Part shown: piece by piece, positions 9,683 through 15,633 of the stretch
Numbering within the stretch: position 1 is the first letter of the stretch
Layout of the letters: every line of letters begins with the position of its first letter
NCBI GenBank assembly: GCA_019359095.1
Contig: JAHHHZ010000022.1
Location: 1 to 64,000, forward strand
Direction: 5' to 3'
DNA length: 64,000 nt
Origin: Pleurocapsa minor HA4230-MV1
GTDB lineage: Bacteria > Cyanobacteriota > Cyanobacteriia > Cyanobacteriales > Xenococcaceae
The notes under the pieces: generated by a model
What the model saw: the letters and a program-made list of their open reading frames with translations, nothing else
What the model was told of the DNA's origin: nothing
Database searches by the model: none
Program-made: the position numbers and the translations under genes

Positions 9683-10111
9683 ATGAATAATTGGCAAGAC
9701 GAATGGTGGAAACAGATTGAAAAAACCGCAGCAGACATGGAAAAGTTTTTTGCTGAAGCGGGAGAGACTACCGAGTTGTTGGTAGACGAAATGACTGAAA
9801 ATGTTGGTTCTTTTTTAGCACAGTTTTCGGCAGACTGGGCCGAAGAAGTTGAAGACTTTATTCACAACTTTGTGGATGTAATTGTTACCACCAGCGATGA
9901 AATAGATGCCGCTCTCTCGAATGAGTGGGACAATTTTGTGGATGAGGATTTTACCAGTGTTAGCTATCATGCTCCATCTGCTAAAAATAATCCTGCTTGC
10001 GTTAATTGTGCTAACTATCATGGACAAAGTTACAATGGCAATCTTTTAGTTTGTGCCATGCATCCCAATGGTTATGACGATAGCACTTGTCCCGATTGGA
10101 CGCAAGAATAA
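9683..10111 (+). CDS. acidic protein with C-terminal cysteine cluster
   Basis: This 142-residue protein is strongly acidic in its first 90 residues (many Asp and Glu, amphipathic helices rich in Trp and Phe). It ends in a compact Cys/His-rich unit from about residue 105: ACVNCANYHGQ, then LVCAMHPNGYDDSTCPDW. Four cysteines and two histidines in this pattern could bind zinc or an Fe-S cluster. I do not recognise a named family, though the tail looks like a cyanobacterial conserved module. It is paired with the phasin-like gene upstream. A palindromic repeat element begins within a few bases of its stop. Confidence 0.65.
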   Translation: MNNWQDEWWKQIEKTAADMEKFFAEAGETTELLVDEMTENVGSFLAQFSADWAEEVEDFIHNFVDVIVTTSDEIDAALSNEWDNFVDEDFTSVSYHAPSAKNNPACVNCANYHGQSYNGNLLVCAMHPNGYDDSTCPDWTQE

Positions 10112-10118
10112 ACAATGA

Positions 10119-10190
10119 GTCCTAAAGGATTCACTAAAGTACTAGCTTCGCGTCGCCCTAAAGGGTACACCTTCGGATAAGCTTCGCGTC
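10119..10190. mobile_element. 72-bp palindromic element with 7-bp direct repeats
   Basis: A two-part copy of the dispersed element (TCCTAAAGGATTCACT..., then CCCTAAAGGG, then GCTTCGCGTC) is bounded by the 7-bp direct repeat ACAATGA at 10112-10118 and 10191-10197. The perfect repeat fits a target-site duplication. Confidence 0.7.
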
Positions 10191-10342: not shown

Positions 10343-10720
10343 ATGGAATATATAGCTTTAGCAGCTCGGATCTGCCTCTGTCTAATTTTTTTTAAAGCGG
10401 GAATTAGCCACATCACAGGTTTTAGTGGGTTAGTAGAAACGATCAGCAGTCAGGGATTACCTTTAGCTAGCCTATTAGCAGCAGGAACAGTATTTTTCCA
10501 ACTATTAGGCTCGGTTTCTTTACTATTAGGTTACAAGACTAATATTGGTGCAATTTTACTGATCATTTTCTTGATACCTGCTACTTTACTATTTCATAAT
10601 CCGATCGCCGATCCCAGTCAAATCAACGACTTTCTTAAAAACATTGGTTTGATTGGTGGATTATTAATGGTTATCTATGCAGGTGCAGGAGCATTGAGTG
10701 TAGATGGTCAAAAAAAGTAA
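10343..10720 (+). CDS. DoxX-family membrane protein
   Basis: This 125-residue protein has four predicted membrane helices, the DoxX/DoxD fold. The first carries RICLCLIFFKAGISHITGF, and the segment FHNPIADPSQINDFLKN precedes the last helix, as in DoxX proteins. The ATG at 10343 follows an AGGA-type ribosome binding site; a TTG at 10319 would add eight residues. The family is often tied to quinone or thiol redox chemistry in membranes. Its last codons are CAA AAA AAG TAA, an A-AAA-AAG slippery heptamer at the stop. The following flavoprotein frame is -1 relative to it, so a DoxX-flavoprotein fusion of about 551 residues may also be made. Confidence 0.88.
   Translation: MEYIALAARICLCLIFFKAGISHITGFSGLVETISSQGLPLASLLAAGTVFFQLLGSVSLLLGYKTNIGAILLIIFLIPATLLFHNPIADPSQINDFLKNIGLIGGLLMVIYAGAGALSVDGQKK
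10711..10720 (+). promoter_or_regulatory. A-AAA-AAG slippery heptamer at stop codon
   Basis: Bases 10711-10717 read A AAA AAG in the DoxX frame and are followed directly by TAA at 10718-10720. This is the classic bacterial -1 frameshift heptamer, as in dnaX. Slipping back one base leads straight into the flavoprotein frame (GTA at 10717). A purine run AGGAG lies about 20 bases upstream, and a weak CCCAA/TTGGG stem could form about 35 bases downstream. An A7 run could equally allow polymerase slippage or reflect a one-base sequencing error. Confidence 0.55.
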
Positions 10721-11997
10721 CAGCGATTGCTAAAGCATCAAAAAAATTACCCAAAGTTGTAGTAATTGGGGCAGGTTTTGCAGGCTTGAGCGCCATCAAA
10801 CACTTATCTGATGCTGAAGCAGAAATACTATTAATCGATCGCCATAATTATCATACTTTTATTCCTCTGCTCTATCAGGTAGCCACAGGTTTTATTGAAC
10901 CCGAACTGATCGCCTATCCTCTACGTACTGCATTACGCAAGATTGATAATGCCGATTTTTTACTGGCACAAGTCCAACAGGTTGATTTGGAAGGTAAAAA
11001 AATTATTACAGATCGGCAAACGATCGCCTACGATTATTTGGCGATCGCTACAGGGAGTCAGGCTAACTTTTTGCAAGTGGCTGGCGCACCACAGCATACT
11101 TTCCCCTTGAGAACTTTAGCCAATGCCGTTGCTCTACGTAACCAGATCCTGAACTGTTTTGAACAGGCTGTAATAGCAAACGATCTTTCTCAACAAGCGC
11201 AATTAATGACCTTCGTTATTGTGGGTGGGGGTGCTACAGGAGTAGAAATGGCGGGTGCGTTGCAAGAATTAATCCAAAATTGCTTGACGAAAGATTATCC
11301 TCAATTAGACAAACGCCAAGCAAAAGTAATCCTCTTACAGTCTGGAGACACTTTACTTAGTACCTATCCAGAACCCTTGTCTAAATATACTTTACGTCAA
11401 TTACGCGATCGCCAGATCAAAGTACATTTCCAGAGTCGAGTCAAAGCAGCTACCGCCAAAGCAGTTATTTTAGAAGATGATACGAGTATTGCTACCTCGA
11501 CGATTATCTGGACAGCAGGATTAGAAGCTAATTTTCCTCAACCTCAATCAAATCTAATTACGGCTAGTAAAAATAAGCTGGAAGTTTTGCCCACTCTTCA
11601 ACTACCAAATCATCCTGATGTCTATGTTGCAGGAGATGCTGCCTATGTCGAACAAAATGGTGAACCTTTAGCGGGAATTGCTCCAGAGGCTCTACAGCTA
11701 GGAGGTGCAATTGCCAAAAACATCAAGCGACAATTAAAAGGGAAAACTCCCCAAGCTTTTAACTACTTTAACAAAGGTCAAGCAGCGATTATTGCTCGTA
11801 ATACAGGAGTAGCTTATTTATTGGGTAAAATTCCCCTGAGTGGCTTCCTAGCTTGGCTGTTGTGGCTTGGCATTCACGTTTACTACTTGCCAGGATTATC
11901 CAACCGCGGCAAACTTCTGGGTGCTTGGTTAAAAGATTATCTCTGGCGCGATCGCTCTATTAAACAGATTTTTACCTTTAATTATCTTAAAAAATAA
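10717..11997 (+). CDS. NDH-2-like NAD(P)H:quinone oxidoreductase
   Basis: This type II NADH-dehydrogenase-like flavoprotein has a first Rossmann motif KVVVIGAGFAGLSAIKHL, a second nucleotide motif FVIVGGGATGVEMAGAL, and the C-terminal FAD motif DVYVAGDAAYVE. The YLPGLSNRGKLLGAWLKDYL end is hydrophobic to amphipathic and suits membrane attachment. It transfers electrons from NAD(P)H to quinone without proton pumping. No ATG, GTG or TTG lies in frame before the first Rossmann motif: the first standard start (TTG 10786) would cut through GxGxxG. The coordinate given is where a -1 slip from the DoxX gene would enter. An ATT at 10726 is the only nearby alternative. Confidence 0.85.
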   Translation, partial: VTAIAKASKKLPKVVVIGAGFAGLSAIKHLSDAEAEILLIDRHNYHTFIPLLYQVATGFIEPELIAYPLRTALRKIDNADFLLAQVQQVDLEGKKIITDRQTIAYDYLAIATGSQANFLQVAGAPQHTFPLRTLANAVALRNQILNCFEQAVIANDLSQQAQLMTFVIVGGGATGVEMAGALQELIQNCLTKDYPQLDKRQAKVILLQSGDTLLSTYPEPLSKYTLRQLRDRQIKVHFQSRVKAATAKAVILEDDTSIATSTIIWTAGLEANFPQPQSNLITASKNKLEVLPTLQLPNHPDVYVAGDAAYVEQNGEPLAGIAPEALQLGGAIAKNIKRQLKGKTPQAFNYFNKGQAAIIARNTGVAYLLGKIPLSGFLAWLLWLGIHVYYLPGLSNRGKLLGAWLKDYLWRDRSIKQIFTFNYLKK

Positions 11998-12039: not shown

Positions 12040-12129
12040 GCGCCCTAAAGCATACCGCAAGGGTACTAACTCCGTGTCGCCCTTATGCGAAGCGGTACCC
12101 TTTAGGGTTAGGGAATCCTTTAGGACTCA
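12040..12129. repeat. compound palindromic element
   Basis: The compound copy contains CGCGCCCTAAAGCATACCGC, CCTTATGCGAAGCGGTACC, CCCTTTAGGG and TCCTTTAGGA in turn, forming several nested inverted repeats. It lies between the NDH-2-like gene and the reductase gene. No exact flanking direct repeat is visible. Confidence 0.65.
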
Positions 12130-12211
12130 TTGAACAAAGTTGACTGATTTGTTTTGCTTGCTTTAATCTGTTAAAGGTTTGACAACAATCTTGAGACAGG
12201 TATTACTTGGT

Positions 12212-14598: not shown

Positions 14599-15633
14599 CT
14601 ATTGCTTTTTTAATTCTTGATACATTTTATACATTTCAGGTAATCGCTTATACATGACAAATAGTTTACGATACAGCCGACTAGGGATATGAGGCATACC
14701 TGAAACCATCTCTCCCGCTGCTACATTGCCAGTAATACCTGTCTGTCCTGTGGCAATTACGCGATCGCCTACTGTTACCTGATTGGCAACACCAACTTGT
14801 CCTCCAAGCATGACTCCATTGCCAATAATTGCTCCCCCAGCTAATCCTACTTGAGAAGCCATGGCACAATTCTGTCCGATCTGACAGCCATGACCAATCT
14901 GCACTAAATTATCAAGTTTAGTATTGCGTCCAATGCGAGTTTCTCCCACCGCAGGGCGATCTACGGCACTGTTACAGCCAATTTCTACACCATCTTCTAA
15001 TACGGTAGAGCCTGACTGTTCCATTTTGTACCAGCCTGTTGCGGTTGGCACAAAGCCAAAGCCTTCTGAGCCGATTACCGCGCCACTATGGATGACACAG
15101 CCAGCGCCGATTTGAGTCCGTTCATGAATGGTACAGTTGGCATGGAGAATAGTATCGTTACCAATAGTCACATCAGGATAAATAACTACGTTAGGATGAA
15201 TTATCACGCGATCGCCAATCGTTACACCCTTCTGAATGACTACATTTGCGCCAATATAAACATCTTGCCCCACAGTAGTATCAAGCTCAATAACTGCACT
15301 AGAATGAATGCCTGGCGTTGGTTTGAAAGGCTGATAAAAAAGAGCGATCGCCTGGGCAAATAATAATCTGGGGTCAGAAGTAGCAATCCAAGCAATATTT
15401 CTGTCTGAGGCTTGGATTTGTAGAGTTTCATCTAAAGGCAAGATTAGAGCGATCGCTTGCGTCGTCGCCACCATGGCTGCAAACTTTCCGCCTTCAACGT
15501 AGCTTAATGAGCTACCATCTGCCCGATCAATTGCAGCTACTCCTTGTAATTCAGGATTCAAATTTTGCTGTTGATCGAAGCTGTTATGATTAGCTGCTGT
15601 ACCAAGTTTGCTGACAAGTTCTTGAAACTTCAT
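14599..15633 (-). CDS. lpxD: UDP-3-O-acylglucosamine N-acyltransferase
   Basis: LpxD adds the N-linked acyl chain in lipid A synthesis, from acyl-ACP. The 344-residue protein has the uridine-binding N-terminal domain (about residues 1-105; AIALFYQPF, PGIHSSAVI). A left-handed beta-helix of hexapeptide repeats (IGxx type) then runs from about 110 to 300, with the HANCTIHERTQIGAGCVIHS and IGSEGFGF segments typical of LpxD. A C-terminal helical part (YRKLFVMYKRLPEMYKMYQEL) follows. No lpxA or fabZ neighbour is present, unlike many bacteria. The assignment is firm. Confidence 0.93.
   Translation of the reverse strand: MKFQELVSKLGTAANHNSFDQQQNLNPELQGVAAIDRADGSSLSYVEGGKFAAMVATTQAIALILPLDETLQIQASDRNIAWIATSDPRLLFAQAIALFYQPFKPTPGIHSSAVIELDTTVGQDVYIGANVVIQKGVTIGDRVIIHPNVVIYPDVTIGNDTILHANCTIHERTQIGAGCVIHSGAVIGSEGFGFVPTATGWYKMEQSGSTVLEDGVEIGCNSAVDRPAVGETRIGRNTKLDNLVQIGHGCQIGQNCAMASQVGLAGGAIIGNGVMLGGQVGVANQVTVGDRVIATGQTGITGNVAAGEMVSGMPHIPSRLYRKLFVMYKRLPEMYKMYQELKKQ

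Follow-up and report, generated by a model that had tools for sequence, protein, structure and literature searches.

A candidate −1 frameshift at a conserved A-run may join DoxX to a start-less NDH-2-like flavoprotein in Pleurocapsa minor

How is a flavoprotein gene translated when it has no start codon of its own, and lies in the −1 frame directly behind the gene for a DoxX-family membrane protein? This question is raised by a locus in Pleurocapsa minor HA4230-MV1 (genome G000), found within the window, by which we mean the whole stretch of 64,000 nucleotides analysed here (positions 1 to 64,000 of contig JAHHHZ010000022.1). The features of the locus, each with its basis, are:

10343..10720, plus strand: DoxX-family membrane protein, 125 aa, frame 0 (Pfam, hydropathy)
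10704..10706, plus strand: third-frame ATG, one codon 5' of the A-run (sequence)
10710..10716, plus strand: run of seven A (sequence; A9 in the related genomes G024 and G014)
10711..10717, plus strand: slippery heptamer A_AAA_AAG, in phase with DoxX (sequence)
10717..10749, plus strand: linker, 11 codons in the NDH frame, ahead of CCC AAA GTT (sequence)
10717..11997, plus strand: NDH-2-like flavoprotein ('NDH'), 426 residues from shift to stop, −1 frame (Pfam, solved relatives)
10718..10720, plus strand: TAA stop of DoxX, adjoining the heptamer on its 3' side (sequence)

The DoxX open reading frame (ORF) opens with the ATG at 10343, matches Pfam DoxX (E 4.3e-18; 66.2 bits against a cut-off of 23.6) and encodes about four hydrophobic segments, as judged by hydropathy. 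Its 3' end reads CAA AAA AAG TAA, and letters and coordinates alike bear out the first-pass annotation, which had placed A_AAA_AAG directly at the stop; the letters across the junction are GTAGATGGTC-AAAAAAA-GTAACAGCG. That annotation had also described a −1 frame running unbroken into an NDH-2-like Rossmann motif without a start of its own, and this too is what we find: relative to DoxX the NDH frame is −1, it is open from 10639 to 11997, and it holds no ATG, GTG or TTG ahead of the first GxGxxG, the first such codon being a TTG at 10786, within the first Rossmann motif itself. The length of 551 residues given for the product of a slip is arithmetically correct (125 + 426 residues).

The NDH frame matches Pfam Pyr_redox_2 (E 1.2e-44), and its best solved relatives, which span most of its length, are type II NADH dehydrogenases (9mqy, YjlD and the S. 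aureus enzyme); the match to 9mqy reaches E 7.7e-67 over residues 14–412 of 428, with the best sulfide-quinone reductase at only 1.6e-13. Two dinucleotide-binding motifs, GAGFAG and GGGATG, are present. The earlier assignment as an NDH-2-like oxidoreductase therefore agrees with the sequence, which is closest to NDH-2 entries and has both motifs, whereas quinone activity is a family expectation: from its relatives, NDH would be expected to oxidise NAD(P)H at the membrane with reduction of quinone. Matches to NDH occur at four other places in the 5.64 Mb genome, at 27 to 35% identity. The linker in the window is lysine-rich (KKVTAIAKASKKLPK), with fewer lysines in the linkers of relatives; by the positive-inside rule, this is in keeping with a flavoprotein that faces the cytoplasm.

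As regards the surroundings, a 142-aa ORF at 9683-10111 has no Pfam match, and a close homologue of it sits directly upstream of DoxX in two related genomes, G016 and G017. Inverted copies of a dispersed repeat lie on either side of the DoxX-NDH pair (10113-10137 / 12108-12132; 25 nt, 96% complementary), with further inverted-repeat arms at 10156-10181 / 12082-12107; the repeat's core, GAGTCCTAAAGGATT, has 29 copies in the window's genome. No listed pair of the flanking repeat sequence surrounds the DoxX-NDH genes of G024 and G014.

A survey of NDH homologues across 27 genomes of the family gave matches at E 1e-100 or better in 22 of them, at 26 places, and none in the other five. Two genomes of the same genus as G000, namely G024 (78% NDH identity) and G014 (69%), have the same layout as the window: NDH follows DoxX immediately, in the −1 frame and lacking a start codon, and A_AAA_AAG is in phase. 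Their run is A9-G where that of the window is A7, the A9 differing from the window's TC-A7 by substitution and not by length. The junctions read GGA AAA AAA AAG AGA TAA in G024 and GGA AAA AAA AAG ACT ATC TAA in G014, such that one and two codons, respectively, separate the heptamer from the stop; in all three genomes the DoxX stop thus falls zero to two codons past the heptamer. The search of relatives for a conserved slippery site, which had been suggested as a check, has accordingly found both the site and the missing start in three genomes. Linker length varies (11 codons in the window, 5 in G024, 9 in G014 and 11 in a remnant in G016), and yet the NDH frame is kept, so that ribosomes most likely read this stretch in the NDH frame from the A-run onwards.

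Association of the site with a start-less NDH is strict in our sample: among 49 distinct DoxX ORFs, A_AAA_AAG is in phase in only three, namely those that a start-less NDH follows. The 49 were drawn from 62 loci, with the first match taken at each, comprising the best-scoring DoxX loci of the order together with those near NDH, as opposed to every DoxX gene. Seven more DoxX ORFs, not counting those of G016 and G017, have six A in a row close to their end, but out of phase or without the G.

In a tree of 34 rows (the 26 NDH places and 8 from the order), NDH has its own start codon, 9-16 codons ahead of GxGxxG, in all 28 other assessable rows, a count that leaves out G154, G043 and G091, where the aligned piece started past the first motif. 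An independent start codon in relatives had been named as grounds for refuting the frameshift; such starts do exist outside the three genomes, but no A-run junction accompanies them, so that the slippage model is not refuted for the locus described here. What these homologues do show is that members of this enzyme family normally function with no DoxX joined to their N-terminus. In 14 of the 34 rows a same-strand DoxX follows NDH, and in the G006 row a distant DoxX is found 244 nt ahead of an NDH that has possible starts. G000, G024 and G014 form one clade with G013 (support 100/100), and the three start-less cases are hence not independent. In G013, NDH starts with an ATG behind a leader containing AGGAG, and no DoxX match was found at E 1e-15. 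We do not take G013, which belongs to the same genus as G000, as a proven 'reversion' to an own start: the best tree nests it in the start-less clade (support 94/84), but a placement outside is not rejected (p-AU 0.104).

The DoxX proteins nearest to that of the window, at 94 and 95% identity, belong to G016 and G017. Behind DoxX in G016 is a remnant of NDH, in the same −1 phase and then cut off, and the heptamer now reads A_AAA_AAT; in G017 NDH has gone without a remnant, and the run is A6-G. The heptamer is thus changed in both genomes in which NDH is lost. In each, the site of loss is followed by a 112-aa ORF, presumably encoding an alkyltransferase-like protein. The clade amounts to a 'natural experiment', in which the heptamer is lost along with NDH, and NDH starts from its own codon in a close relative where no DoxX adjoins it.

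By a simple counting method, dN/dS for NDH is 0.14 (G000/G024), 0.13 (G000/G014) and 0.08 (G024/G014), at dS values of 1.03, 1.63 and 2.40, respectively; for DoxX, dS is 2.41 (G000/G024), 1.49 (G024/G014) and beyond saturation (G000/G014). Such codon comparisons indicate that DoxX and NDH are both under purifying selection, and the high dS at both genes means that the A-run has outlived much synonymous change. Part of the run simply follows from lysine residues, as AAA is the commoner lysine codon in these genes (AAA:AAG of 28:5 in G000, 20:12 in G024 and 23:7 in G014), and three related sequences provide no strong statistic for its persistence. Within ORFs of at least 100 aa, A_AAA_AAG occurs in phase 4 times in G000 (144 kb), 5 times in G024 (160 kb) and 6 times in G014 (160 kb), and within the last five codons 2, 1 and 1 times, one per genome being that of DoxX; its presence at the DoxX end is more than chance. 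The pattern GATGGNNAAAAAAAG is found somewhere in 189 of 388 genomes, and twice in that of the window; being so widespread, the motif alone means little, and it is its place that counts. A minus-strand ORF elsewhere in the window (14599-15633) also has an in-phase A_AAA_AAG, at 14605-14611, one codon ahead of its stop.

The site and the missing start, shared by three genomes, support a conserved frame change at the A-run, as do the loss of the heptamer alongside NDH, the frame-keeping linkers and the purifying selection on both genes; on these sequence grounds the change is very probably real and kept. We propose a model for how it might come about, which we regard as probable though far from assured, wherein DoxX and the start-less NDH-2 share one message and a ribosomal −1 slip on A_AAA_AAG generates a 551-residue fusion alongside an excess of DoxX. 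The two coding regions, for DoxX and for an NDH-2-type NAD(P)H:quinone oxidoreductase, would be co-transcribed and read from a single mRNA. Most ribosomes would presumably pass through A_AAA_AAG into the stop, releasing free DoxX, while in a minority tRNA-Lys would re-pair on AAA AAA one base further back, and these ribosomes would continue via the short linker into the flavoprotein to produce the 551-residue enzyme. We suggest that the fusion would be the working product, with its DoxX portion serving as a membrane 'tether', and that free DoxX would be present in excess.

The sole tRNA-Lys found among at least 35 confirmed tRNAs (150 of 380 candidates scored) is tRNA-Lys(UUU), which is the situation that makes A_AAA_AAG shift-prone in E. 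coli, as described in an excerpt of PMC5009743; chelatase cassettes with 7, 9 and 11 A are reported in part of PMC3711429 to shift at 10, 40 and 63% in E. coli. Folding of the downstream RNA (40, 60, 80 and 110 nt, in the three genomes) for hairpins, as opposed to pseudoknots, gave z-scores of −1.05 to +1.40 against shuffles, none of them remarkable, and no Shine-Dalgarno-like site upstream is common to the three, with AGGAG present in the window alone. In one E. coli study (PMC4066793), heptamers lacking stimulators did not exceed roughly tenfold the background of 0.055%; the same paper also mentions a proven −1 frameshift case for which no stimulator is established. A stimulator is common, but not universal, among genes with programmed −1 frameshifting, and is not a defining feature. 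The first-pass annotation had gathered heptamer, stop and missing start into a single slip model, of which the conserved frame change at the A-run stands, whereas the ribosomal route and the fusion are what we infer, given the lack of a detected stimulator, the A9 of the relatives and the ATG at 10704.

The slip could instead be made by RNA polymerase, which, by adding or dropping an A, would bring a fraction of the mRNAs into frame: one A more would give the DoxX-NDH fusion, and one A fewer would give NDH from the ATG at 10704, which the missing base would bring into the NDH frame. Overall we consider this somewhat unlikely, but in the A9 genomes, G024 and G014, it is a serious rival to the ribosomal slip, since nine is the length used in Thermus dnaX, and IS elements of Nostoc have 8-10 A at such sites (part of PMC1088944); the failure to find a ribosomal stimulator, among hairpins and in the upstream sequence of the three genomes, also counts in its favour. 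Against this, E. coli RNA polymerase is described in an excerpt of PMC6260861 as slipping only on at least seven T, or on a still longer run of A, so that the A7 of the window is short for it, which favours the ribosome there; moreover, the phase of A_AAA_AAG and a tRNA-Lys(UUU) as the only one found are just what a ribosomal mechanism needs. We infer that slippage at the junction is mainly ribosomal and not a matter of RNA polymerase. The same ATG allows for DoxX and NDH as separate working partners, with free NDH made from 10704 when a base of the run is passed over, whether by a +1 shift on AAA or because the mRNA is one A short, and with this coupled to the DoxX end. An ATG does precede the A-run in all three genomes, near the expected start of NDH, and the separate DoxX gene downstream of NDH in 14 of 34 rows would suit such an arrangement. 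We nevertheless think it quite improbable, as it would place 15-21 residues ahead of GxGxxG where 28 homologues have 9-16; as GATGG stands ahead of the A-run not only in G000, G024 and G014 but also in G016 and G017, where, with no functional NDH behind, it is still there because it encodes Asp-Gly of DoxX; and as one A less in the DNA would suffice for a direct start, yet is seen in none of the three. A rather unlikely, if appealing, extension is a 'two-way outlet' at the A-run, in which one shift would yield DoxX-tethered NDH-2, the other free NDH-2 from 10704, and no shift DoxX alone. Slippage would then decide how the output divides among tethered enzyme, free enzyme and anchor, with the off-phase kept by selection even though a single-base indel would fix either form. 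Runs of A mutate often by single-base changes, and yet the sole phase kept is that in which neither DoxX nor the ATG at 10704 leads into NDH, which suggests that the off-phase may be useful.

The same mutability, with an A-run exactly at the junction, would accord with phase variation, whereby run length varies in the population and all three assemblies happened to catch the same off state. This is very improbable: the three genomes and the G016 remnant are all in the same one of three phases, and A9 and TC-A7 differ by substitution, not by a change in length. Under-called homopolymers are a common error of sequencing and assembly, and a true run of A8 (A10 in the relatives) would make this a plain fusion; alternatively, NDH might be a decaying pseudogene. 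Both are most improbable in our estimation, since purifying selection on NDH argues against decay, and a miscall would require one shared error across three assemblies, which is unlikely; runs of 7 or 8 A/T are, furthermore, maintained deep within intact ORFs of at least 200 aa (28 in G000, 30 in G024 and 28 in G014, over 144, 160 and 160 kb), although none of length nine occurs among the A/T runs inside intact ORFs of these genomes, which leaves the A9 junctions without a direct control. Lastly, translation of NDH might begin downstream of the A-run at a codon other than AUG, for which an ATT at 10726 in the window, and ATA and ATT in G024, would be candidates. We give this next to no likelihood, because in G014 the first such codon is an ATC, codon 11 after the A-run and already in the Rossmann strand, and because the frame is kept from the A-run onwards despite changes in linker length. 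Near-cognate starts were thus discarded: none is common to the three genomes, and none lies ahead of the Rossmann strand in G014.

To our knowledge, few genes outside mobile elements have a confirmed change of frame. If the ribosomal −1 slip proposed here is correct, a membrane protein would be joined to a respiratory-type flavoenzyme in phototrophs, and decoding would set how much tethered enzyme is made relative to free anchor. Automatic annotation might easily treat such a locus as two genes, or as a pseudogene.

In itself, a frameshift or slip at an A-run is well known, from dnaX, IS elements and the magnesium chelatase gene chlD. We found no report of an A-run frameshift for DoxX or for NDH-2 in the literature covered, which consisted of the main texts of largely open-access papers; DoxX is nowhere named in the main text of PMC3711429 or in the examined part of PMC5009743. 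The dnaX gene of E. coli uses the same heptamer, A_AAA_AAG, and a rarer dnaX layout resembles the DoxX junction in having the zero-frame stop directly behind the site, with the longer product made by the shift (both from an excerpt of PMC5009743); the genes themselves are different, however, and DoxX-NDH has no detected downstream hairpin or conserved Shine-Dalgarno. In chlD, as here, two ORFs are joined at an A-run and in-frame fusions exist in other species, with shifting demonstrated in E. coli on runs of A7 to A11 (part of PMC3711429), whereas in-frame fusions of our pair have the opposite order, with NDH first. The orfA/orfB arrangement of IS elements, including the A8-A10 runs of Nostoc, likewise has a downstream ORF that is reached via a slip on an A-run (part of PMC1088944), but neither ORF of the window's pair is a transposase (Pfam DoxX and Pyr_redox_2).

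Closest in terms of the families involved are the NDH-2-like and DoxX genes of other cyanobacteria. NDH and DoxX adjoin in many of those examined, and in three genomes they form an in-frame NDH-DoxX fusion:

G357, L240 322-2016: 564 aa
G214, L241 419-2146, minus strand: 575 aa
G299, L242 495-2222: 575 aa

Natural fusions, which the first-pass annotation had proposed searching for, do therefore exist, albeit in reversed order. In G022 (an uncultured Pleurocapsa; L019/L033), where DoxX is downstream of NDH, a TAA breaks the DoxX frame, and the gene is possibly a pseudogene. That the two are so often neighbours, and are sometimes fused in frame, makes a working partnership likely. The same two families thus lie side by side or fused, but in those neighbours NDH has its own start and DoxX comes after it (the 14 of 34 rows above), whereas here DoxX comes first and NDH is start-less; relative to the in-frame fusions, the window's pair has its order reversed and its link optional.
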